Assembly (NCBI RefSeq): GCF_032302195.1
Contig: NZ_CP135275.1
Location: forward strand, 4,154,001-4,218,000
Direction of reading: 5' to 3'
Length of the DNA stretch: 64,000 nucleotides
From: Paenibacillus sp. MMS20-IR301
Lineage (GTDB): Bacteria; Bacillota; Bacilli; Paenibacillales; Paenibacillaceae
In this document: in pieces, positions 6,365 through 18,948 of the stretch
Position numbering within the stretch: the first letter of the stretch is position 1
How the letters are laid out: the number at the start of each line of letters is the position of its first letter
Translations under genes and position numbers: made by a program
Notes under the pieces: generated by a model
Databases searched by the model: none
Told to the model about the DNA's origin: nothing
Seen by the model: only the letters and a program-made list of their open reading frames with translations

Positions 6365-7453
6365 TTACTCTGCTGTATCTACCGTCACAGATCCGTTACT
6401 GGTCGATAGGCTTACCTTATGTGTTCCGCCGCCAAGCACAACTGTGCCATGATTCTCATCGCCGTCCCAGGTAACATTGCCCTTAAGCGAACCATTGCTG
6501 GTATCCGCAGTAATCTCCGCATCCGTTACCGCCGGCAGCCCGGCTATAATTTTACCGTTGCTTGATTTCAATTCCCATTCACCGGTAACTGCAGAATTGA
6601 TTGTAATCTTACCGTTGCTGCTCTTGGCAGACAGTGAGCCGTCAATATTACCGAGCGTGATTGCCCCGTTAGAGCTCACCAGCTCCACTTCGCCCTGTAC
6701 ATTCTGAACATTCACTGTGCCATTGCTGGTGTGCGCCTTCACACCTCCGGTAATATCATGTATATCCATCGTTCCGTTGCTGGTATCGACATCCAGTCCG
6801 CCTGTTAAGTTAGCCGCTTCAACCGTTCCGTTGCTGGTCTCCACTTCTACAGCCAGATTCCCGGGAATGCTGACATTCAGATATGGATCTTTGATATTGA
6901 AGCCGATCTGGATATTCGACAGCCAGTTCGAATCGCTTTCCAGCTCCATGATGAGCGTGTCGCCTTCAACTGTCACTTTCCACTTACGCTCAAGTGCGCT
7001 GGCCGCCTCACTCTCCGTTTTGCCCGGCAGCTCCAGCTTTCCTTCATAGTCCAGCGTGTTACCTGCCACGCCTTCAAGCTTGATTTTACCGCTGGGCAGC
7101 TCAATCTTCACATTCTTGATATCCTGCTGTACCTCAACCGACCCGCTGACCGGAGCAAGCGCCGTATTCCCTATAATGCTGCTCAGGGAACCGCCTGCCA
7201 GCGCATTCTGCACACCGCTTGCACCTACAAGAATGATAATCAGGACAACCGCCCAGCCGCTGACACGGCTCTTGGCATCCGATTTAATGAAGAGCCTCAG
7301 CAGCATCTCAAGTCCGAACAGGATAAGCAGAGCCGGCCACAAATAACCAATCACATCATAGTTAATAAAATTGAACTGTGCGAGTACTACAATAACACCC
7401 AGCACTATGCAGCCGATTGCGGCGGTAAAGCTGCCGATTTTCCATCTCCCCAT
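6365..7453 (-). CDS. LiaI/LiaF-like membrane protein with DUF4097 beta-helix domain
   Basis: A 362-residue protein. The first 85 residues hold two to three hydrophobic helices in the style of LiaI/LiaF transmembrane regions. From about residue 115 onward it is a DUF4097-type repetitive beta structure, with SNG turn motifs recurring every 15-20 residues (TSNGTV, TSNGTM, SSNGAI, SSNGKI, TSNGS). Such proteins are found beside cell-envelope stress regulators, but their biochemical role is unknown. It is the last gene of a four-gene minus-strand unit with the ECF sigma factor, anti-sigma factor and a TM2-like protein, and probably belongs to that response. Confidence 0.85.
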   Translation of the reverse strand: MGRWKIGSFTAAIGCIVLGVIVVLAQFNFINYDVIGYLWPALLILFGLEMLLRLFIKSDAKSRVSGWAVVLIIILVGASGVQNALAGGSLSSIIGNTALAPVSGSVEVQQDIKNVKIELPSGKIKLEGVAGNTLDYEGKLELPGKTESEAASALERKWKVTVEGDTLIMELESDSNWLSNIQIGFNIKDPYLNVSIPGNLAVEVETSNGTVEAANLTGGLDVDTSNGTMDIHDITGGVKAHTSNGTVNVQNVQGEVELVSSNGAITLGNIDGSLSAKSSNGKITINSAVTGEWELKSSNGKIIAGLPAVTDAEITADTSNGSLKGNVTWDGDENHGTVVLGGGTHKVSLSTSNGSVTVDTAE

Positions 7454-7472
7454 AGTTCATTTCCCCATTTCG

Positions 7473-7970
7473 CTATACTTTTGAATTGTTCTTCAGCATT
7501 CTGAGACCATAACCGATCAGAGCAAGGGACAGCAGGATCGCTCCGATATTCAGATCGTTAAGTATTGCCCAGAGCGCCGGGAATGCAGTGATCAGCATCA
7601 GCAGAATACCGGCGGTAACGCAGCCAATGCCGACCCAGACCGGATTAACATCATCATGCGGATACATCGGCGGAGCTGTCATCCCCATCGTCCAAGGCGC
7701 TCCGAAGCTGTCCGGATGAAACATCATCCGTTCATGCTCGGCAGCAGACAGCTTCATCCAGGCTGCCTTCTGCAAAGCATCGAATAACTGGTAGAACCAG
7801 AGTGCTGCCAGGGCAAACGGAAATACCGCAGGCATGGACGGAATGAAGATAATACACAGTGATGCTCCAATCATATACTCCAGGCCCATTTTTTTGAAGC
7901 CTAAATACATATGTCCGAGTCCCGGAATCATTGCCAGGAGAAAAGTGAGCCAGCGTCTTTTTTTAATCAT
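7473..7970 (-). CDS. TM2-like small membrane protein
   Basis: A 165-residue protein with about four hydrophobic helices. It opens with a basic KKRRW, then the motif LLAMIPGLGHMYLGFKKMG, typical of TM2-domain proteins. ATG at 7968-7970 is chosen because AGGAGG lies nine bases upstream; a longer in-frame reading begins before that site. The gene lies between the anti-sigma factor and the DUF4097 gene (19-base gap), so it is part of the same operon. Its role is unknown; an assisting role in envelope stress is inferred from context only. Confidence 0.85.
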   Translation of the reverse strand: MIKKRRWLTFLLAMIPGLGHMYLGFKKMGLEYMIGASLCIIFIPSMPAVFPFALAALWFYQLFDALQKAAWMKLSAAEHERMMFHPDSFGAPWTMGMTAPPMYPHDDVNPVWVGIGCVTAGILLMLITAFPALWAILNDLNIGAILLSLALIGYGLRMLKNNSKV

Positions 7971-8069
7971 TGATAACATCCTCCTAAATTTTGAACATGT
8001 ACTCCTGAAGTGAAGCTCTATTCCACACAGGCTCGGCCAGTCATAATGCACCGGGACGGCCTTGATTTT

Positions 8070-8537
8070 TTACGGATTATTGCTTTGCGGGTTAAACCAG
8101 GTACTGACGGAACTGGACATTTGCCCGTTAATTTCCGTAATCCCATAAGCAAGATGTTCGAATACACCGAATTGCAGCAGCAGGAAAGTTAATCCGACGG
8201 CAACACCATAATGCATCCAGGAGGTTCCCGGTGCTGTACGCCGTCTGGACATCGTTGATTTCATAACCCGTTCCCTGCGCCCGTTCTCCAAACGGTCAAT
8301 TTGCGCCATCACATCCGCCGTAAGATCAGGGAAGTCCGGGGACATTGCTTCAGGGCTTGCAGTTCCGAGCTCTGCTTCCATATCACTCCAGAGCGCCGCA
8401 AGTCCGCGCGCCTCCTCCAGCCATTCCGCGCAGCCGGGACAGGACTGAATGTGCTGGCGGATACTGTAATCCGCCTCAGGAGACAGCTGGCCATCGATAT
8501 AATGCGGCATCCATTCTTTTACTGTTGCACAATTCAT
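8070..8537 (-). CDS. Zinc-finger (ZAS-type) anti-sigma factor
   Basis: A 155-residue single-pass membrane protein that would hold the neighbouring ECF sigma factor inactive. The N-terminal zf-HC2 domain shows HIQSCPGC (His-x3-Cys-x2-Cys). A linker follows, then one transmembrane helix near residues 108-128 and a short outer tail. The second ATG (8535-8537) is preferred. It lies seven bases after GGAGGA, and it overlaps the sigma stop codon as ATGA, the usual sign of translational coupling. The first ATG, six bases upstream, almost touches the ribosome site. Confidence 0.9.
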   Translation of the reverse strand: MNCATVKEWMPHYIDGQLSPEADYSIRQHIQSCPGCAEWLEEARGLAALWSDMEAELGTASPEAMSPDFPDLTADVMAQIDRLENGRRERVMKSTMSRRRTAPGTSWMHYGVAVGLTFLLLQFGVFEHLAYGITEINGQMSSSVSTWFNPQSNNP

Positions 8538-9082
8538 CGCCATTCCTCCCCACTTTTACGCATCATCTGTCTGGCCCGATAGAGCTGCGATTCAACCGTT
8601 TTAACCGAAATCCCTTTTTGATCAGCAATCTCCTGGTAGGAGTGGCGCTGAAAATAGTACAGCTGGACAACCGACCGGTACGGTTCTGTCAGACTGTTCA
8701 AATTCTCACCGAGCTCCTGGGACGCTTCCTTGCGCAGTAATGTCTGCTCGGGCGTCTGTGAAGACACCCAGTCATTTTCCGTGTAGTCCGCTGTACTGCG
8801 ATGCCGCCATTCCCGGTCATTGGCCCGTTTCCAGTCCAGACAGGTCCGGTAAGCAATCCGGTACAGCCATGTAGAGAATGAAGACTGTCCTCTGAAGGAG
8901 GGGAGCGCCTTATAGGCTTTAATGAAGACTTCCTGGGCCATATCCTTAGCCGACTCGGCTTCTCCTGTAATCTTGATGCATACACTGTATACCATGCCTT
9001 GATAGCGCGTTACCAGTTGCCCGAAGGCCTGATGCTCGCCATTCAGCACGGCAGCAATCCACTCCGTCTCTTCCAAAGTCAT
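8534..9082 (-). CDS. ECF (group 4) RNA polymerase sigma factor
   Basis: A 182-residue sigma-70 family protein with region 2 (about 15-90, including DMAQEVFIKAYKALPSFRG and FSTWLYRIAYRTCLDWKR) and region 4 (about 125-178, with SYQEIADQKGISVKTVESQLYRAR as helix-turn-helix). It would redirect RNA polymerase when the membrane anti-sigma factor lets go. The ATG follows AGGAGGGGAGA. It is the first gene of the sigma, anti-sigma, TM2, DUF4097 unit and lies just downstream of the giant adhesin gene. I looked for an ECF-type autoregulatory promoter (GAAAC/CGTC) at usual spacing and did not find a convincing one. Confidence 0.95.
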   Translation of the reverse strand: MTLEETEWIAAVLNGEHQAFGQLVTRYQGMVYSVCIKITGEAESAKDMAQEVFIKAYKALPSFRGQSSFSTWLYRIAYRTCLDWKRANDREWRHRSTADYTENDWVSSQTPEQTLLRKEASQELGENLNSLTEPYRSVVQLYYFQRHSYQEIADQKGISVKTVESQLYRARQMMRKSGEEWR

Positions 9083-9256
9083 TCTCCCCTCCTTCTGCTA
9101 CATAACGTTAGACGCCGGAGTTTCAGATACCCCTGCAGCCCGCACAACTTTTTTTCTAGAAAAATATCCGGTCCCTCAGCTTACCTTAATATATCCTGTA
9201 TAGGCCTTAAATCTCTACATTTTTTTGGGGCCTTCAGCTGTCCCCGGATACAAAAG

Positions 9257-9288
9257 AACCCGCCCGAAGCATGGCTTCAGGCGGGTTT
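9257..9288 (-). terminator. Terminator of the adhesin gene
   Basis: Stem ACCCGCCtGAAGC / GCTTCgGGCGGGTT with a three-base loop, about 40 bases after the adhesin stop, between it and the ECF sigma gene. This separates the two transcription units. Confidence 0.8.
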
Positions 9289-9325
9289 CCGTGCATAGCT
9301 GTGAATTTGTACTTATTATTTCAGC

Positions 9326-12300
9326 TTATTCCGGTTTGTTGCGTGTCTTGAACTTCCGGGCCAAAACAATACCGGCAACAATCAATCCTCCGCCAAGCAG
9401 ATAAAGCGGAAGCGGGCTGTCTTCCCCTGTCTTAGGGAGATTGCCAGGCAGTGTCTTGCCACCCGAATCTGTGTCTGTGCCGTTATCAGTGTTGGTTACA
9501 GAGCCAGTCGGCACTTCATCAACACCAACCTCAATAATTACATCCTGCTCATTGCCGTCTTCATCCGTTACGGTAATTGTGAACTTATCCTTACCAATGA
9601 AGCCTGGATCCGGCGTATATGTCCATTTGCCGTCAGGTGTAACTACGACTGTACCATGGGAAGGCTGTACGGTAATTTCCGGAATACCGCCCAGAGGAAT
9701 CTCACCATTAATCGGAATATCCTCGACAGTAGTTGCCGATGTTGCCTGTGGTGTCACCGCCGGAGCACTGCTGGTTGCAGGCTGCGTAGGAGCTGCAGTA
9801 GGAACTGCAGTTGGTCCCGGAGTTACCGTAGTGCCCGGGGCCCCAGTCGCTGAAGGAGCCGGCGTAACCGTTGCAACCGGTGCTGCCGTACCTACTGGAG
9901 TAGCTGTCGGAGTAACCCCGGGGTTCGGTCCTGGCGCTCCTGTCGGTGCCGGTATGTCTTTATTAGTAATTGGATCCAGCACCTTCTGTACCTTCGAATC
10001 AATTGTAATGCTGCGCTCTGTGGAATCCAAATAATATCCGGTTGGAGCCACCGTTTCCTTCAATGTGTATTTTCCAAGCTTCAGGTCCTTGAATTCAATC
10101 TCGCCGTTTACATCAGTAACAGCCGTTGCAACTACATTCTTGCTGGAGTCATACAATTTAAATTCTGCTCCGGCAAGCTTTCTTGCCTCATTTCCTTCAG
10201 CTACCTTAACGACCTTGATCGAACCCAGGGTTTCCTGGTTGGTGATCGGAGGCAGCACCTGCTGCGTCTTCCCGCTGATCGTGACATTGCGCACCGTAGC
10301 ATCCAGATTGAATCCGGCTGGCGCTTCGGTTTCCTGCAGGGTATATGACCCCAGCTTCAAATCAGGGAAAATAATTTCACCGCTGGCATTAGTTGTGCCC
10401 GTTGCCACCACAACATTGCTGGAGTTCGTGAGCTTGAATTTCGCTCCGGCTAGCTTCTTCGCCGTATCAGCTGCATCCACCTTCACTAGCTTGAGTGACC
10501 CCAAGGTTTCCACGTTCTTAATTGGAGCCAGCACCTGCTGCGCTTTTCCGCTGATTGTGATGTTGCGTACAGCCGCATTCAGATCATATCCGGCTGGTGC
10601 TTCGGTTTCCTGCATCGTATATGCACCGAGTTTCAAATCATTAAATACCAGTTCGCCATTAACATTGGTAGTGCCTGTTACTACTTTACCAGTACTTGTA
10701 TTCGTAAGTTTGAACTCTGCTCCCGTAAGCTTCTTCGCATCATCCGCCGCATCCACCTTCACGAGCTTGAGTGAGCCCAAGGTTTCCTGGTTCGTAATCG
10801 GAGCCAGCACCTGCTGCGCCTTCACAGTGATCGTGATGTTGCGTACTGTGGCATCCAGATCATATCCGGCTGGCGCTTCAGTTTCCTGCAGAGTGTATGA
10901 CCCCAGCTTCAAATCATTGAATACCAGTTCACCATCACCATTGGTAGTACCTGTTACTACCGTTTTCGTGGCCGTATTCGTAAGTTTGAATTCTGCACCG
11001 ATAAGCTTCTTCGTGCTGTCTCCTGCATCCACCTTCACGAGCTTGAGTGAACCCAGCGTTTCCACGTTCTTGATTGGAGCGAGTACCTGCTGGGCTTTCC
11101 CGCTGATTGTAATGTTGTGTACCGTAGCATCCAGATCATATCCGGTCGGAGCTTCAGTTTCCTGCAGCGTATACGCACCTAGCTTCAGATCGTTGAATAC
11201 CAGTTCACCATTAACATTGGTTGTACCTGTTGCTACCTTACCGGTAGTTGTATTCGTGAGCTTGAACTCTGCTCCGATAAGCTTCTTCGCTGAGTCAGCC
11301 GCATCCACTTTCACCAGCTTGAGTGAACCCAGGGTTTCCTGGTTCGTGATTGGAGCAAGCACCTGCTGCGCCTTCTCAGTGATCGTGATGTTGCGTACTG
11401 TGGCATCCAGATCATATCCGGCTGGCGCTTCAGTTTCTTGCAGCGTGTATGACCCCAGCTTCAAATCAGGGAAAATAATTTCACCATCAGCATTGGTAGT
11501 ACCTGTTACTACCGTTTTCGTGGCCGTATTCGTAAGTTTGAATTCTGCACCGATAAGCTTCTTCGTGCTGTCTCCTGCATCCACCTTCACGAGCTTAAGT
11601 GAACCCAAGGTTTCCACGTTCTTAATCGGATCAAGCACCTGCTGCGCCTTTGCACTAATCGTAACGTTGTGTACCGTAGCATCCAGATCATATCCGGCTG
11701 GTGCTTTAGTTTCTTCCAGGGTATATTTGCCCAGCTTCAAATCTTCGAATACCAGTTCACCATTAACTTTGGTAGTGCCAGTTACTACCTTACCGGTAGT
11801 CGTATTCGTGAGCTTGAACTCGGCTCCGATAAGCTTATTCGCACTGTCAGCTGCATCTACCTTCACTAGCTTGAGCGAGCCCAGCGTTTCCTGATTTGTA
11901 ATCGGAGCCAGCACCTGCTGCGCCTTCTCAGTAATCGTGATATTGCGTACCGTAGCATCCAGATCATATCCGGCTGGCGCTCCAGTTTCCTGCAGCGTGT
12001 ATGTGCCCAGCTTCAAATCACTGAATACCAGTTCGCCATTTTCCTTGGTAGTACCTGTTACTACCGTTTTGGTGGCCGTATTCGTCAGTTTGAATTCTGC
12101 GCCTTCAAGCTTCTTCGTGCCATCAGCTGCATCCACCTTCACGAGCTTGAGTGAACCCAAGGTTTCCACGTTCTTAATCGGATCAAGCACCTGCTGCGCC
12201 TTTGCACTAATCGTGATGTTGTGTACCGTAGCATCCAGATCATATCCGGCTGGCGCCTTAGTTTCTTCCAGGGTATATTTGCCCAGCTTCAAATCTTTAA

Positions 12301-15300
12301 ATACCAGTTCACCATCACCGTTGGTTGTATCTGTTACTGCCTTACCACTGATGATATTGGTGAGCTTGAACTCGGCTCCGATAAGCTTCTTCGCTGAATC
12401 AGCCGCATCCACCTTCACGAGCTTAAGCGAGCCTAAAGTCTCCTGGTTCTTAATCGGATCCAGTACCTTCTGTACCTTGGAATCAATCGTAATATTCTGT
12501 GGTGTTCCATCCAGGTCGTATCCGGCTGGAGCCCCGATCTCCTCAAGTGTATAAACTCCGACCTTCAGATTGTCGAAGACAATTTCCCCAAATTCATTGG
12601 TAGTCTTCGTACCTATCACAGTCTTACTGGAATTTGTGAGCTTGAACACTGCTCCTTCCAGTTTTTTCGCAGCGTCCGCTGCATCGACCTTAACCAGCTT
12701 AATCGAGCCTATGGTTTCTATGTTCGAAATTGGGGTCAGAACCAGCTGAACATCCGAAACAATCTTGACATTACGTACCCTTGCATCCAAATCATATCCG
12801 TACGGGGCCTTGGTTTCCACCAAAGTGTAGTCCCCCAGATTCAGATTATTGAATTCAATCTCACCATCGGAATTCGTTATATCCGTTACCGCCACATTTG
12901 TACTGGTATTCGTGAGTCTGAATTCTGCTCCGGCAAGCTTCTTATTTACATTACTATAATCTACCTTACTCAGCTTGAGTGAACCCACGGTTTTGGTGTT
13001 CTTGATTGGGCCCAGCACCAACTGAGTTGTCGAATCTATTTTGATATTACGCACTGTGGAATCCAATACATATCCGGTTGGAGCAGTAACTTCCACCAGC
13101 TTGTAATCCCCGAACTTCAAATCAGTGAATATAACTTCACCACTTGCTTCGGTAATAACAGAGGCAACAAAACCATTGGTGACAGCATTGTACAGATCGA
13201 ACTTGGCGCCTGCGAGTTTCTTGGTCCCGTCAGCCGCATCTACCTTAAGGAACTTAAGAGAGCCCGTTTTGGCTTTATTTGGGAACGAGGCCAGAATCTT
13301 TTGTGACTTTTCCGAGATCTTGACATCGATTACTGAAGCACTCACCTCATACCCGGCTGGAGCCTCAATTTCCTTCAGTTTATAATCTCCCAGGTTCAAA
13401 TTAGTGAAGATAACTTCACCGCTCGGACTGGAAGTAGCCTCATAAACCTTAGTATCACTGGAATTAAACAGCCCGAACTTTGCTCCGGCAAGCTTCTTTG
13501 TTGCATCTGCTGCATCTACTTTATCAAACTTGAGTGACCCCATAGTTGATGTATTCTTTACCTCCAGCGTCTGCTGATCCTTCGAGGTAATTGAGATATT
13601 CCGGATTGTTCCATCCAGATCGTATCCGGCCGGAGCTTTGACTTCCTCCAGTTTGTATGACGCAACCTTCAAATTCGGGAAAATAACTTCACCGCTGGCG
13701 TTGGTAGTTGCTGCTGCAACCTGAACACCGCTGGTATTGCTCAGCTCGAACTTCGCTCCTTCGAGCTTCTTCCCTGAGACAGCATCTACCTTGATGACCT
13801 TAAGTGAGCCTATTGTTGCCGTATTCTTAATAGGATCCAGTACCTTCAGCACTTCCGAGTCAATCTTCACGCTCAGCATCGTACTATCCAGATCATATCC
13901 ATATGGAGCGGTTACTTCCTTAATGAAGTAATCTCCGAATTTCACATCAGCGAATACAGCTTCACCGTTAGCACCGGTAGTAGCAAATTTATTCAATGAA
14001 ACTTTGCTGGCATTAAATAACTCAAACTTCGCACCTGCAAGCAACTTGGCCCCATCATCTTTATCCACTTTGATAACCTTAAATGAGCCGTAAGGATCAT
14101 TCGTTAAAGTCAGTTCCGCTGGTGTTGTTGAATTGATAGTAACCGGGCGTGATGTGGTATCAAGTATATATCCTGCTGGTGCTTTGGTTTCTTTCAGGAC
14201 ATATTTACCCAGCCGCAAATTCGGGAAGCTAATGACACCATTCGCATCACTTTTAAATGATCCTGTAACAGCAACCAAATCTGTACCTACTTTTCGCTTC
14301 AAGGAGAACTCGGCACCGGCCAGAACTTTCGTGCTGTCTGTATTCGTTTTGGTCAGCTTGAGTGAACCTCTTATCCCGCTGCCCGTGCCTCCGCTCTCAC
14401 TAATAAACACGCTATCGGTGGTTGAGGTTGATGTATTTACCTGCGTATAACCCGATCCGCTAAAAGCCACGTAATTTGTTACTTTTACAGTATCTACCGC
14501 GGTAATAGCAGTTTTGTACTTGAGTATATAAGGTTCAGCAATTTCATTCTTAAATGTCAGTTTAAAGCTGTCGTTCCCACTGGAATCAGTACTGATAACA
14601 AGAGTATAATCTTTATCCTTTTCCAGTGTTGTCGAAGTGGGCTCCACATCCCCATTTGGTTTAACTAGGGTTGTATAGAGCTGGAAGCTTTCCGGCAGCA
14701 GCACCTGATTTGTACTTGGTGTATCTATAATCTGTACACCGCCCACCCTGGACTGATTCGCGTTAATGATCAATTGCCAGTTTACGAGCGTATTATCAGA
14801 ACCATCAACAGCTCCGGATTTCGCTATATATTCTCCACCATGTATTACAGATGCATCTCCAGTTAATTTTTCTGATACCGCGGTATTTCCTGCATTGTAC
14901 AATGTTGCACTATTGGTCACGGTTTTCAGATTAACGTCGTCATCTTTAAACTTAGTTTTGAATTCCACATAGAAGGCGTAGTCGATTTGTTTCGTGAATT
15001 CAACTCTAAGCTTCTGTCCGTTGTCAATCAAGCTTGCAGTGTAATCCGCTGAATCTACAGGAGTTCCCGGCTGAGGGCTGCCTGAGGCACCATAAGTCAG
15101 CTTATACACCTTAATTGCTGTAATGTCCCCGGACAAAATCTGGCTTGCAGGAAGCGTATCAACCAGGTAAGCACCTGCAGGCAGCACTCGCTTGTTATAA
15201 TTCGCTCCAACCTTCCAGGTAATCTGCTTGCTCAGCACATCATAGCTGCCTGTCTTCAAGCCGTTATTCTTAACCTTGATATCAGGATCGAATTTACCTA

Positions 15301-17089
15301 TCGAGGTATAAGGTGAGCCAGATGTATTCTCAGTCCAATTAATGGATGCGGTATTCTCAAAAGTCTTACCGCTTGTTAAGCTGTAAAGATCAAAATTGGT
15401 AGTGTACGTAATTGTATAAGGCTGATTGATAACCTTATTAAAAGTTATTATAAAGCCATCATTTTTACCAAATGTACTTCCTACCGGAGTAATTGAATAG
15501 TCGGGAGAAGCATTCGGCAATCCAATCAGCTTCAGTCCGCCGAGATTAAATGTATCCGTCAATACCAGATTACTCATTGTTTTCTCGTCTTCATTAATTT
15601 TAATCGTCCATTTTACGGTTTTATTCTCGTAGTCTATATCATAACCATCCTGCTTAGTCAAAATTTGTTGTGCAGTACTGACGTCAGCCGTTTTCTTTAT
15701 ACCATTGTAATTGACTTCATTCGTAATGGTCTGTTTCTCATAAACACGGATGTTCGATTTTGTATTGTAAATGATCTTGTATGCGTTTTGGATATCATTA
15801 TTGAAGCTAATCTGGAAACCGTTCTGAGTACCCACTCTATCCGTTAAAGTAGTGATGGTATAATCCGTATCTCTTACTAAAGTTCCATCATTAGTAGCAG
15901 TTCCGTCTGAGCTGATCTTCATTTTATATATAACAATTGAACTATCCACTAAATCCTGGGTTTTATTAAAATAGTCCTTTAGAACCGCCTTGTCCGCCGT
16001 AATGGCTTTCTCATTGTAGTTATATCTGATCTCCCAGTTAATGGACTCATCAGCTAAATCATATGATCCGCCAATCTTCTCCAGGGTCTGGCCCAGCTCA
16101 ATACCAACTGATCCGTTTGCCTCGCCTTGGCTGGTACCATTAGCAGTGAGAATGGCTTTGTTAGTATAAGTTGTCGTCTCCGTTACGGGGAGCTTCGTTG
16201 TAAATTTCACCCGGTAAGCTTCGCTGACCGGATAGTTAAATTTAATATTTAATTTATCTTTATCGCTGCCATCTATGCTGTAAAGCCCTGCACTGACCGG
16301 CTGGCTGCCCGGGGTCAAGTCTCCGTTAATTTTTACCGCCAGCGGATATACAGCAATCGAAGTAAGATCCAGTTCCTGGCCATTCAGCATCGTATCTGTG
16401 ATTGCTGCATCGCTAAGCTTATTTAAGAGTGTGTTGACATCTACCGTCCACTCGATTTTATTCGCATTATACTTTTGCGGCAGAGGTATCCCCGATTTGG
16501 TAATCACACTTCCTTTTTCAGGTTTAATTTGGATGGTGATTGCATAATCAGGATTCCCAGAGATCGGGAAAGGAAGCACCTGTACGGTACTACCGGTGGT
16601 TCTAGTCTGGCTGAGTTTAATTTTCACCCAGAAGGTACCTTTTATTTGTGAGTAATAATCACTAATATTGTTGAAGTTAAATACAACTGTGTTGTCAGTT
16701 TTTACAGTATAAGTTCCGACATCGCCAGTTGGAGAATCATTGAAATACAATTTATCCGTCATTTCTTTATCAATTTGCAATTGATCAGGAAGCTTATAGG
16801 TATATGTAGAATTCCCTGTATAGATCGGATTGTTATCTTCATCCTCCGGCAGCTCATAGGTCAAATCCAGCCTAATGGTCGAATCGATCTTATATACAGT
16901 ATCAGTAACCTGTGTGCCATCACTTTCGTACACGGATAATGTGACGGATTTAATAATATTTTCAGTAATCGGGGTTTCTCCGTTAGCTGCATTGATGCTG
17001 GAAAAGAAGCCCATAGAATTAGCGACTAGTATTGCAAGTAATAATCCCCCGAGCCACATAGCCCATTTCTTCTTTTTCATTAATCTCAA
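9326..17089 (-). CDS. Giant LPxTG-anchored adhesin with 16 CnaB/SpaA domains
   Basis: A 2587-residue surface protein. The first 40 residues are a signal peptide (KKKKW, hydrophobic core, AANG). Residues about 40-905 are adhesive domains. At least five share a W-(I/V)-x2-N...D-T core, like collagen-binding/SdrG-type folds. Sixteen CnaB (SpaA) domains of about 92 residues follow from residue 908 to about 2380. Each keeps a Lys in xxKVD, a Glu in xxExxAPxGY and an Asn near its end, the set that forms internal isopeptide bonds. Then come a Pro/Thr/Ala linker (about 2381-2460), a cadherin-like domain, LPKTG at 2551-2555, a hydrophobic helix and a basic tail. Start: TTG at 17087-17089 lies five bases after GGGAG; an ATG at 17078-17080 is the alternative. 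No sortase is in the window. Confidence 0.93.
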   Translation of the reverse strand: MRLMKKKKWAMWLGGLLLAILVANSMGFFSSINAANGETPITENIIKSVTLSVYESDGTQVTDTVYKIDSTIRLDLTYELPEDEDNNPIYTGNSTYTYKLPDQLQIDKEMTDKLYFNDSPTGDVGTYTVKTDNTVVFNFNNISDYYSQIKGTFWVKIKLSQTRTTGSTVQVLPFPISGNPDYAITIQIKPEKGSVITKSGIPLPQKYNANKIEWTVDVNTLLNKLSDAAITDTMLNGQELDLTSIAVYPLAVKINGDLTPGSQPVSAGLYSIDGSDKDKLNIKFNYPVSEAYRVKFTTKLPVTETTTYTNKAILTANGTSQGEANGSVGIELGQTLEKIGGSYDLADESINWEIRYNYNEKAITADKAVLKDYFNKTQDLVDSSIVIYKMKISSDGTATNDGTLVRDTDYTITTLTDRVGTQNGFQISFNNDIQNAYKIIYNTKSNIRVYEKQTITNEVNYNGIKKTADVSTAQQILTKQDGYDIDYENKTVKWTIKINEDEKTMSNLVLTDTFNLGGLKLIGLPNASPDYSITPVGSTFGKNDGFIITFNKVINQPYTITYTTNFDLYSLTSGKTFENTASINWTENTSGSPYTSIGKFDPDIKVKNNGLKTGSYDVLSKQITWKVGANYNKRVLPAGAYLVDTLPASQILSGDITAIKVYKLTYGASGSPQPGTPVDSADYTASLIDNGQKLRVEFTKQIDYAFYVEFKTKFKDDDVNLKTVTNSATLYNAGNTAVSEKLTGDASVIHGGEYIAKSGAVDGSDNTLVNWQLIINANQSRVGGVQIIDTPSTNQVLLPESFQLYTTLVKPNGDVEPTSTTLEKDKDYTLVISTDSSGNDSFKLTFKNEIAEPYILKYKTAITAVDTVKVTNYVAFSGSGYTQVNTSTSTTDSVFISESGGTGSGIRGSLKLTKTNTDSTKVLAGAEFSLKRKVGTDLVAVTGSFKSDANGVISFPNLRLGKYVLKETKAPAGYILDTTSRPVTINSTTPAELTLTNDPYGSFKVIKVDKDDGAKLLAGAKFELFNASKVSLNKFATTGANGEAVFADVKFGDYFIKEVTAPYGYDLDSTMLSVKIDSEVLKVLDPIKNTATIGSLKVIKVDAVSGKKLEGAKFELSNTSGVQVAAATTNASGEVIFPNLKVASYKLEEVKAPAGYDLDGTIRNISITSKDQQTLEVKNTSTMGSLKFDKVDAADATKKLAGAKFGLFNSSDTKVYEATSSPSGEVIFTNLNLGDYKLKEIEAPAGYEVSASVIDVKISEKSQKILASFPNKAKTGSLKFLKVDAADGTKKLAGAKFDLYNAVTNGFVASVITEASGEVIFTDLKFGDYKLVEVTAPTGYVLDSTVRNIKIDSTTQLVLGPIKNTKTVGSLKLSKVDYSNVNKKLAGAEFRLTNTSTNVAVTDITNSDGEIEFNNLNLGDYTLVETKAPYGYDLDARVRNVKIVSDVQLVLTPISNIETIGSIKLVKVDAADAAKKLEGAVFKLTNSSKTVIGTKTTNEFGEIVFDNLKVGVYTLEEIGAPAGYDLDGTPQNITIDSKVQKVLDPIKNQETLGSLKLVKVDAADSAKKLIGAEFKLTNIISGKAVTDTTNGDGELVFKDLKLGKYTLEETKAPAGYDLDATVHNITISAKAQQVLDPIKNVETLGSLKLVKVDAADGTKKLEGAEFKLTNTATKTVVTGTTKENGELVFSDLKLGTYTLQETGAPAGYDLDATVRNITITEKAQQVLAPITNQETLGSLKLVKVDAADSANKLIGAEFKLTNTTTGKVVTGTTKVNGELVFEDLKLGKYTLEETKAPAGYDLDATVHNVTISAKAQQVLDPIKNVETLGSLKLVKVDAGDSTKKLIGAEFKLTNTATKTVVTGTTNADGEIIFPDLKLGSYTLQETEAPAGYDLDATVRNITITEKAQQVLAPITNQETLGSLKLVKVDAADSAKKLIGAEFKLTNTTTGKVATGTTNVNGELVFNDLKLGAYTLQETEAPTGYDLDATVHNITISGKAQQVLAPIKNVETLGSLKLVKVDAGDSTKKLIGAEFKLTNTATKTVVTGTTNGDGELVFNDLKLGSYTLQETEAPAGYDLDATVRNITITVKAQQVLAPITNQETLGSLKLVKVDAADDAKKLTGAEFKLTNTSTGKVVTGTTNVNGELVFNDLKLGAYTMQETEAPAGYDLNAAVRNITISGKAQQVLAPIKNVETLGSLKLVKVDAADTAKKLAGAKFKLTNSSNVVVATGTTNASGEIIFPDLKLGSYTLQETEAPAGFNLDATVRNVTISGKTQQVLPPITNQETLGSIKVVKVAEGNEARKLAGAEFKLYDSSKNVVATAVTDVNGEIEFKDLKLGKYTLKETVAPTGYYLDSTERSITIDSKVQKVLDPITNKDIPAPTGAPGPNPGVTPTATPVGTAAPVATVTPAPSATGAPGTTVTPGPTAVPTAAPTQPATSSAPAVTPQATSATTVEDIPINGEIPLGGIPEITVQPSHGTVVVTPDGKWTYTPDPGFIGKDKFTITVTDEDGNEQDVIIEVGVDEVPTGSVTNTDNGTDTDSGGKTLPGNLPKTGEDSPLPLYLLGGGLIVAGIVLARKFKTRNKPE
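10226..12433 (-). repeat. Tandem array of 8 x 276 bp (4 x 552-bp A/B pairs) within the adhesin
   Basis: CnaB domains 8-15 are exactly 92 codons each. They alternate between two types. Type A has TGK in the middle loop and ends in KNVETL. Type B mostly has TATKTVV and ends in TNQETL. The pair (552 bp) therefore occurs four times, showing expansion by duplication of a two-domain unit. Domains 1-7 and 16 are more diverged and do not follow the alternation. Confidence 0.9.
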
Positions 17090-17323
17090 GACATCTCCCT
17101 CTTCCCTTTATATTTTTCTCTAGTGCCGGACATGTAAAAATTGTCAAAAGCGTCTGATCAACTATGTAAATTCGCTCTTTCTCGTTTAAAACCTCCTGAA
17201 ATTTTGCAAAATTGACAGACGAAAAATTTAAAAGTCGTAAGAATGACAAATCTCATAGTAAACACTCCCACTGATAAATCACTGATAAATCACTGTAAAT
17301 GAATCCCATATTTTAACTTACAT
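17090..17323. other. Upstream region of the adhesin
   Basis: AT-rich. An 11-bp direct repeat ACTGATAAATC occurs twice and partly a third time at 17270-17295. A palindrome AATTTTGCAAAATT is at 17200-17213. A TTGACA lies at 17142-17147 on the minus strand, but the -10 at 17 bases (ACTAGA) is poor, so no promoter is claimed. I see no c-di-GMP riboswitch. Confidence 0.5.
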
Positions 17324-17368
17324 AAAAAAACCATTCAGCCAGCAGACTATTTCTGCTGATCGAATGGC
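17324..17368 (-). terminator. Terminator of the ilv-leuA operon
   Basis: Arms GCCATTCGATCAGCAGAAA and the matching CTGCTGGCTGAATGG (small bulges), followed by TTTTTTT on the minus strand, 40 bases beyond the leuA stop. Confidence 0.9.
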
Positions 17369-17406
17369 TAATTTACAGGTTTTAGGTTGAATATTAACTT
17401 TTTGGT

Positions 17407-18948
17407 TTAAAGGCTGGAAGGGTCGGCCGGCTGCAATGTTTTACGTTTCTCAATCAGCTTGTTCAGCGCATCCAGGTAAGCTCTGGCACTTGCTTCAAGA
17501 ATATCAGTGCTGAGCCCGCGGCCCTGGACAGCAATCTCGCCTTGCGAGAGCACAACATGCACCTCACCCTGCGCATCTTTGCCCCTGCTGACAGCTTTAA
17601 TCGAATAATCACCCAGGGTGACCTCTTCGCCCGTAGCCTGGTCAATGGCGTTATAGATTGCATCAACTGAACCATTGCCTTCAGCACTGGCCACGATCGG
17701 CTCAGGCTCCTGCCCGTTAATAATAACCTTGGCGGTTGGGGTAGCCTCATTGCCATACGTCACATAAATTGTCTGCAGGCTGAATGTCTCCGGCGTATCA
17801 ATCAGCTTCTCTTCAAGCAGAGCCAGAATGTCCTCATCCGAGACTTCCTTTTTCTTATCAGCCAAATCCTTGAATTTGGCAAAAGCGATATTGATCTCTT
17901 CCTCAGAGACATCAAAGCCCAGATCATTCAGCTTATCACGGAAGGCATGGCGGCCGGAGTGCTTGCCAAGTACCAGCTTGCTCTCCTTGAGTCCGATCGT
18001 TTCCGGTGTCATGATCTCATAGGTCGTTTTCTCCTTCAGCATGCCGTCCTGATGAATCCCGGATTCATGCGCGAAGGCATTCGCGCCAACGATGGCTTTA
18101 TTGCCGGGCACTACCATCCCGGTCAGCTTGCTGACCAGACGGCTGGTCCGCGAAATTTCGGACAACACCAGTGAAGTTTTGGCATCAAAAAATTCACTGC
18201 GTGTTTCCAGTGCCAGTGCAACCTCTTCGATTGCGGTATTACCGGCACGTTCGCCGATTCCGTTAATCGTTCCTTCAATCTGGTCCGCACCATTCTGAAT
18301 AGCAGCCAGCGTGTTCGCAGTTGCCATACCCAAATCGTTATGACAGTGGGCGCTTAGCTGCACACGCTCAATCCCAGGTACTGTATCCTTCAGGAATTTG
18401 AAGATTGCGCCATATTCTGAAGGATTCAAATACCCCACAGTATCAGGGATATTGACTACATTTGCCCCTTCGCGAATCGCCATTGCCACCACTTCTGCCA
18501 TGAATTCACGTTCCGTCCGTCCGGCATCCTCCAGAGAGAACTCCAGCTTGGAGAAATATTTCTTGGCATAACGGATTGCGGACTGCGCAGTTTCCAGTAC
18601 CTGTGATTTATCCATGCGCAGCTTATGCTGGCGGTGAATGGGAGAAGTCGCCAGGAAAATATGGATGCAAGGATCTTGCGCTCCCTGCAATGCTTCCTTA
18701 ACAGCATCAATATCGCTCTCTCTCGAACGGGAGAGGCCAATTACCGTAACGTTCTTAACGGCTCTGGCAACTGCGTTCACTGCAGCCAGATCTCCGGGTG
18801 AAGCGGCAGGAAAGCCTGCTTCCATCCGGTCAATTCCCAGCTTCTCAAGCTGATAAGCGATTTCCACTTTCTCACGCGTATTGAGGTTCACACCCGGCGA
18901 CTGCTCTCCGTCACGCAGTGTCGTGTCGAACACATATATTTTCCGCAT
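17407..18948 (-). CDS. leuA: 2-isopropylmalate synthase
   Basis: LeuA condenses 2-oxoisovalerate with acetyl-CoA, the committed step of leucine synthesis. It has 513 residues. The HMGL-like TIM barrel begins with VFDTTLRDGEQSPG and carries the metal-binding SAHCHNDLG near residue 200. The C-terminal LeuA dimer domain (about 390-505) normally gives leucine feedback inhibition. ATG at 18946-18948 has AGGAGG eight bases upstream; the longer reading frame to 18999 lacks such a site. It is the last gene of the T-box-controlled ilvB-ilvH-ilvC-leuA operon. A hairpin at 18982-19018 separates it from ilvC. Confidence 0.97.
   Translation of the reverse strand: MRKIYVFDTTLRDGEQSPGVNLNTREKVEIAYQLEKLGIDRMEAGFPAASPGDLAAVNAVARAVKNVTVIGLSRSRESDIDAVKEALQGAQDPCIHIFLATSPIHRQHKLRMDKSQVLETAQSAIRYAKKYFSKLEFSLEDAGRTEREFMAEVVAMAIREGANVVNIPDTVGYLNPSEYGAIFKFLKDTVPGIERVQLSAHCHNDLGMATANTLAAIQNGADQIEGTINGIGERAGNTAIEEVALALETRSEFFDAKTSLVLSEISRTSRLVSKLTGMVVPGNKAIVGANAFAHESGIHQDGMLKEKTTYEIMTPETIGLKESKLVLGKHSGRHAFRDKLNDLGFDVSEEEINIAFAKFKDLADKKKEVSDEDILALLEEKLIDTPETFSLQTIYVTYGNEATPTAKVIINGQEPEPIVASAEGNGSVDAIYNAIDQATGEEVTLGDYSIKAVSRGKDAQGEVHVVLSQGEIAVQGRGLSTDILEASARAYLDALNKLIEKRKTLQPADPSSL

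Follow-up and report, generated by a model that had tools for sequence, protein, structure and literature searches.

A probable single-chain fibrillar adhesin of Paenibacillus, with a predicted self-crosslinked stalk whose unit number differs between relatives at one chromosomal site

The stretch analysed here (the window) comprises 64,000 nucleotides of the chromosome of Paenibacillus sp. MMS20-IR301, and carries on its minus strand, at 9326..17089, a gene for a large LPXTG-anchored surface protein. This protein is probably a fibrillar adhesin of MSCRAMM/Cna type, made of one chain and anchored by a sortase, with a stalk that changes in length by gain and loss of units. Direct support comes from the domain order, the conservation of residues, the predicted folds, the conservation of the chromosomal site, the differences in unit number and the co-occurrence of a sortase; the formation of the bonds, anchoring by that sortase, a rod-like shape, the binding of a ligand and the importance of length are presumed from these. 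In the mechanism proposed, the chain would be exported, and its 16 CnaB and five CnaA-like domains would each form an internal Lys-Asn bond upon folding. The sortase encoded at 5,094,218 of the genome would cleave the LPKTG motif and join the chain to the wall, and the stiff rod would hold a Big_8/Collagen_bind tip beyond it. Similar units gained or lost mid-array would set the length of the stalk, as in the Periscope Proteins, with the head and the end units fixed in place.

The first-pass annotation of this sequence had proposed one uninterrupted 7.8-kb gene, and this is indeed what is found: a single open reading frame of 2587 aa with a TTG start and 0 internal stops, in a window free of N. 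The start codon and its ribosome-binding site are kept in 8/8 aligned upstream regions (the window being one of the 8). In the single-contig genome of 7,692,718 bases the gene lies at 4,163,326-4,171,089, and the named proteins most similar to its product are from Paenibacillus. The order of domains from the N-terminus is an export signal region (residues 1-36, 16982..17089, Lys-rich and then hydrophobic, its boundary drawn by eye), Big_8, five Collagen_bind domains, 16 SpaA/CnaB units, a Pro/Thr-rich linker (9749..9958), a Big_9/cadherin-like domain (9530..9748), and an LPKTG sorting motif (9425..9439) with a hydrophobic stretch and a basic tail after it. The Pfam scan of the whole protein gave SpaA in 16 stretches (E 3.8e-301), Collagen_bind, Big_9 and Cadherin_5. 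The linker proposed earlier is visible in the sequence, and the domain called cadherin-like is present, although Big_9 fits it better (E 5.4e-11 against 4.4e-7). The anchor holds as well, in that the NCBIfam LPXTG model scores 21.7 bits against a cut-off of 15.9, although the Pfam anchor model, at 14.7 bits, is under its own cut-off of 20.

The stalk (residues 908-2377, 9959..14368) consists of 16 units of 89-93 aa. As had been claimed, every unit keeps the Lys, Glu and Asn of an isopeptide-forming CnaB domain: the Lys (alignment column 7), the Glu and the Asn are invariant in 16/16 units and therefore not there by chance. The same holds more widely. We compared 50 loci with a related head, namely the window and a non-exhaustive selection of 49 loci from a match list; in these, all three residues are kept in 178/183 units, and three further units have Asp in place of Asn, giving 181/183 with Asn or Asp. 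A second conserved Lys, in column 4, was considered as the bonding residue and rejected, being kept in 143/183 units against 183/183 for column 7. The stalk Lys, Glu and Asn/Asp map onto those of BaTIE, which is the best match of the stalk in both sequence and fold. Whether the three residues meet within a unit was addressed through strand positions and homology only.

For the head, the N-terminal part was divided into six pieces and each was scanned with Pfam. The collagen-binding-like domains expected there proved to be one Big_8 domain at the tip (PF17961, 24.1 bits against a cut-off of 22.9; residues 37-192, 16514..16981) followed by five Collagen_bind domains, which score 41.6 to 75.6 bits (cut-off 27.5). 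The ligand-binding-type pair of MSCRAMM/Cna-like adhesins, Big_8 followed by Collagen_bind, is therefore present in order, with both members over the Pfam cut-off; the label Collagen_bind is in itself no evidence that collagen is the ligand. All five CnaA-like domains carry a Lys-Asp-Asn triad in a 23-row alignment, and 15/15 triad residues lie in strands of the structural model. The triads are K198, D232, N310 in domain 1 (16088..16513), K338, D372, N457 in domain 2 (15668..16093), K479, D512, N579 in domain 3 (15272..15673), K612, D644, N726 in domain 4 (14834..15277) and K757, D789, N872 in domain 5 (14369..14842). In domain 4, K621 is as conserved as K612, but it is outside the model strands. 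Since the head domains also carry triads, 21 bonds are predicted and not 16. The earlier picture of a covalently locked rod presenting a ligand-binding-type head is in other respects well supported, by the residue conservation, the stalk model, the match to BaTIE and the MSCRAMM-type head, with the bonds in CnaB and CnaA-like domains and the binding of a ligand being predictions from sequence and model.

One observation qualifies this interpretation. A phmmer search of the head against PDB sequences gave one monobody match only, at chance level (E 0.088), and the MSCRAMM relatives of the head are visible by fold comparison but not by phmmer; in that comparison the fold matches fall on non-adjacent domains, and Big_8/Collagen_bind may or may not form one closed module. 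It is because of the non-adjacent matches that we put the adhesin reading as probable and no higher.

Evidence for a stalk of changing length comes from a single chromosomal site. In 41/50 loci the adhesin gene adjoins leuA (at least 80% identical), and within the fetched stretches of these 41 there is a sigma-factor gene in 36 and leuB in 24. At the leuA site a single CnaB unit is the commonest case (22 loci), followed by five units (7 loci); two, ten and 16 units occur in 2 loci each (those with 16 being the window and L073), and three, four, six, 11, 12 and 19 units in 1 locus each. One 10-unit and one 2-unit locus reach a contig edge, so that their counts are minima. In a quick tree built from 50 heads (those of 48 loci, of the window and of its nearest relative P0002, with L073 excluded), 19 multi-unit rows fall into one fully supported group; two further multi-unit rows, which are off the leuA site, lie apart from it, and long branches are flagged in other parts of the tree. 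Close relatives can differ: two one-contig genomes whose heads are 96.2% alike have 11 and 12 units, draft genomes with heads 95.7-97.0% alike have 5, 6 and 10, and heads 81.5% alike go with 5 (draft) and 19 units (one contig). All of this is variation between species, from 1 to 19 units at the site and from 5 to 10 among the heads 95.7-97.0% alike. A pattern search of genome contigs for orthologs gave 55 matches, 0 of them confirmed. In L073 (genome G087) the head is broken by stop codons and the 16 CnaB units remain open, which looks like a pseudogene or a sequencing error.

A stalk of 16 units is not of unique length, which qualifies the earlier suggestion that it is unusual, because a same-site ortholog has 19 units and CbpA of Bacillus thuringiensis has 17 according to the part of PMC7423583 available. 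Repeats are well known to cause mis-assembly, and the same partial text reports possible sequencing errors in the cbpA repeats, which raises the question of whether the expansion is an assembly artefact. We consider this scarcely credible: the window lies in a genome assembled as one 7.69-Mb contig, arrays of 11, 12 and 19 units stand in one-contig relatives, and any two of units 8-15 differ by at least 11% of their DNA, except for units 11 and 13, at 5%.

Comparison with the 11 units of P0002 locates the change within the array. Units 1-7 (12434..14368) match their positional partners in P0002, and unit 16 (9959..10225) is the partner of its last unit, while each of units 8-15 (10226..12433) resembles one of its fellow units more than it does anything in P0002. 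The idea that all eight arose recently from one ancestor had to be softened: units 8-14 are nearest to one another, but the closest match of unit 15 lies in the L073 array (86%, against 79% for its best fellow unit). The block has an alternating pattern. In DNA, next-but-one neighbours among units 8-15 are 85.8% identical and adjacent ones 78.8%; at the protein level, units 8-14 share 88 to 95% with their next-but-one neighbours and 75 to 84% with their adjacent ones, the remaining array being below 80%. Units 11 and 13 have 91% identity at third positions. Because next-but-one neighbours are more alike than adjacent ones, the sequences suggest growth by two-unit steps. Next-but-one units among 8-14 also match the definition of Periscope repeats (tandem folded repeats of more than 50 residues with at least 80% identity).

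These changes could be a neutral by-product of repeat recombination, with a stalk length that has no function. Such an account is compatible with the anatomy described and disputes nothing but selection on length. Recombination among similar repeats is well established, the expanded block is where unit identity peaks, and near relatives do differ in unit number. On the other side, the triad is kept in 178/183 units, so that each unit is under constraint, and the end units hold their place; this does not imply selection on length itself. We regard the neutral account as quite possible, although on balance we doubt it. Whichever holds, a related head at one site with 1, 2, 3, 4, 5, 6, 10, 11, 12, 16 or 19 CnaB units is a natural length series, and the role of stalk length in adhesion can therefore be addressed with natural alleles.

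The genome contains two sortases, at 5,094,218 and 6,134,264, the nearer one 0.92 Mb from the adhesin gene, and a genome search found no further SpaA-bearing gene, LPXTG gene or sortase near the adhesin locus. The first-pass annotation was therefore right that no sortase or pilin genes are nearby: the sortases are at 5.094 and 6.134 Mb and the other two genes with SpaA domains at 0.948 and 1.779 Mb, with the adhesin gene at 4.163-4.171 Mb. The sortase at 5,094,218 scores over the cut-off of the general sortase model but of no class model; class C is its best class, under the cut-off. Among 100 genomes of the genus, it and the head occur together in 84 and are both missing from 16, with 0 discordant (Fisher p 7e-19 with kinship ignored; one head match, in G016, is a fragment with E 8.9e-4). 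The two genes are at most 2.5 kb apart in at least 18/84 genomes (19 pairs were examined, the 19th on two contigs). As a control, the sortase at 6,134,264 passes the SrtD LPxTATN model and adjoins an LPDTA protein; SrtD and head are discordant in 33 genomes (29 with the head only, 4 with SrtD only) and still associated (p 0.004). The SrtD-type enzyme was rejected as the partner since the head occurs without it in 29 genomes. The search for a sortase to fit LPKTG has thus yielded a candidate, named by co-occurrence and outside any class model. It probably anchors the adhesin, and the lack of a sortase beside the gene is explained by an unlinked partner that accompanies the head without exception. 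This co-occurrence names an enzyme as partner of surface proteins in the genus. One other locus (L085) has two more genes containing very long low-complexity repeats of the Pro/Thr/Ala type, at 7490-9403 and about 10100-12814, beside two of the other LPXTG anchors.

The same data bear on whether the protein is instead a subunit of a sortase-assembled pilus, polymerised by a class C-like sortase and with the CnaB units as pilin modules. The NCBIfam SpaH/EbpB major pilin model scores 397.2 against a cut-off of 95 bits, several relatives are named 'SpaA isopeptide-forming pilin-related' in the databases, and the best class model of the partner sortase is class C. However, the SpaH/EbpB match spans 16 stretches and its best one is a CnaB unit, showing that it is driven by the repeats; the single-CnaB paralog L076 scores 40.1 with it, under the cut-off, and the class C score of the partner sortase is under its own cut-off. 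Nor is there another SpaA-bearing gene, LPXTG gene or sortase close to the locus, and no pilin cluster equipped with a class C sortase was found there (the pilin polymerisation motif was not searched). A pilus subunit is accordingly very unlikely.

The genome has two paralogs of the adhesin, at 945724-948282 (L077) and 1779540-1782131 (L076), with Big_8, four and five Collagen_bind stretches respectively, and a single CnaB unit each. It is tempting, though speculative and rather doubtful, to suppose that one cell presents the same type of tip at different heights, through the two single-unit paralogs and the 16-unit protein with one dedicated unlinked sortase, and that the leuA-site stalk is a self-crosslinked rod of tunable length, with the length changing faster in evolution than the head, perhaps under a BTAD-type regulator acting on 11-bp repeats. 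If true, an environmental genus would possess a Periscope system built from isopeptide-locked units.

The repeats in question are three 11-bp direct repeats of the TTTATCAGTGA type upstream of the gene (17269..17300, minus strand), a candidate regulator site found by repeat search. The window has two overlapping matches against 0.01 expected, and the whole genome, at up to 3 mismatches, has 5 (two being the window pair) against 0 for the reversed control. Loose repeat pairs occur upstream in 13/50 loci, and in 9 of 13 in the nearest clade including the window, in a scan without a chance control. SARP/BTAD-type regulators bind 11-bp-spaced repeats, and hence a BTAD-type regulator may control the adhesin. 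In the two relatives examined, a BTAD-type response regulator is convergent to the adhesin (L060, 12621-13766; L063, 10404-14645, the latter also with a 7TMR-DISM kinase). In the present genome its closest homolog (60% identity, 1777226-1778362) adjoins a single-unit paralog and not the adhesin. One further copy of the repeat with 2 mismatches (L119, genome 6204218-6204238) lies between a response regulator, 35% identical to the BTAD type of L060, and a short gene that is cohesin-like by eye.

A hairpin-like conserved stretch with a T run after leuA (17323..17370, minus strand) is a probable terminator, noted by eye and not called by the terminator scan. An intrinsic-terminator-like site follows the adhesin gene (9257..9287, minus strand; 14 pairs, where shuffles of this region are expected to give 0.4). 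A sigma-70 promoter scan of 17000-17450 found none, and a search for a riboswitch as in CbpA gave 0 Rfam matches at E 1 in 16900-17500. After the adhesin, at 6365-9082 of the window, are genes for an extracytoplasmic function (ECF) sigma factor, a zinc-finger anti-sigma factor and a LiaF-like protein, which in relatives lie with the adhesin between leuA and leuB.

A literature search, with subscription journals mostly outside it, gave no paper on this Paenibacillus protein among the matches listed, and the protein is best placed by comparison with known systems. By description, one of the closest is CbpA, which in the available part of PMC7423583 has a PF05737 head, 17 Cna_B units, a proline-rich region and LPXTG, and thus shares a Collagen_bind-type head, a long CnaB array, a Pro-rich region and the anchor. 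The same text reports that CbpA binds collagen, that its B region varies between strains and its N1-N3 head is generally more than 90% identical, and that a cyclic di-GMP riboswitch lies upstream; here there are Big_8 and five Collagen_bind domains in place of N1-N3, and no Rfam match. Cna of Staphylococcus aureus, in which the number of B repeats is strain-dependent, and other MSCRAMMs have two or three such repeats in the partial sources, compared to 16 here. BaTIE of Bacillus anthracis (6fwv) similarly has CnaB units in which Lys, Glu and Asn/Asp have been mapped, but in the part of PMC6194298 available these are three, behind a thioester head, whereas our protein has 16 behind a Big_8/Collagen_bind head. 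The 18 families that the Pfam scan listed at E 0.1 include no TED family, and so the thioester domain of a TIE protein was not found. Heads 31-32% identical occur in Bacillus proteins named 'SpaA isopeptide-forming pilin-related protein' (P0015-P0019, P0022), which have shorter stalks of 6 or 8 CnaB units (B. velezensis entries) or 7 (a multispecies Bacillus entry). The Periscope Proteins SasG, Rib and Sgo_0707 are likewise single chains of similar tandem domains in varying number, with a head on a rod (PMC8201768 and PMC9704523, as far as their available text goes). They differ in that the repeats here are CnaB units predicted to crosslink, and vary in number between species; the words 'Cna' and 'isopeptide' are absent from the main text of PMC8201768. 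Between them, CbpA, Cna and the Periscope Proteins cover every main feature of the protein, to which the present work adds a series of 1 to 19 units at one and the same site, the triads of the head and the link to a sortase.
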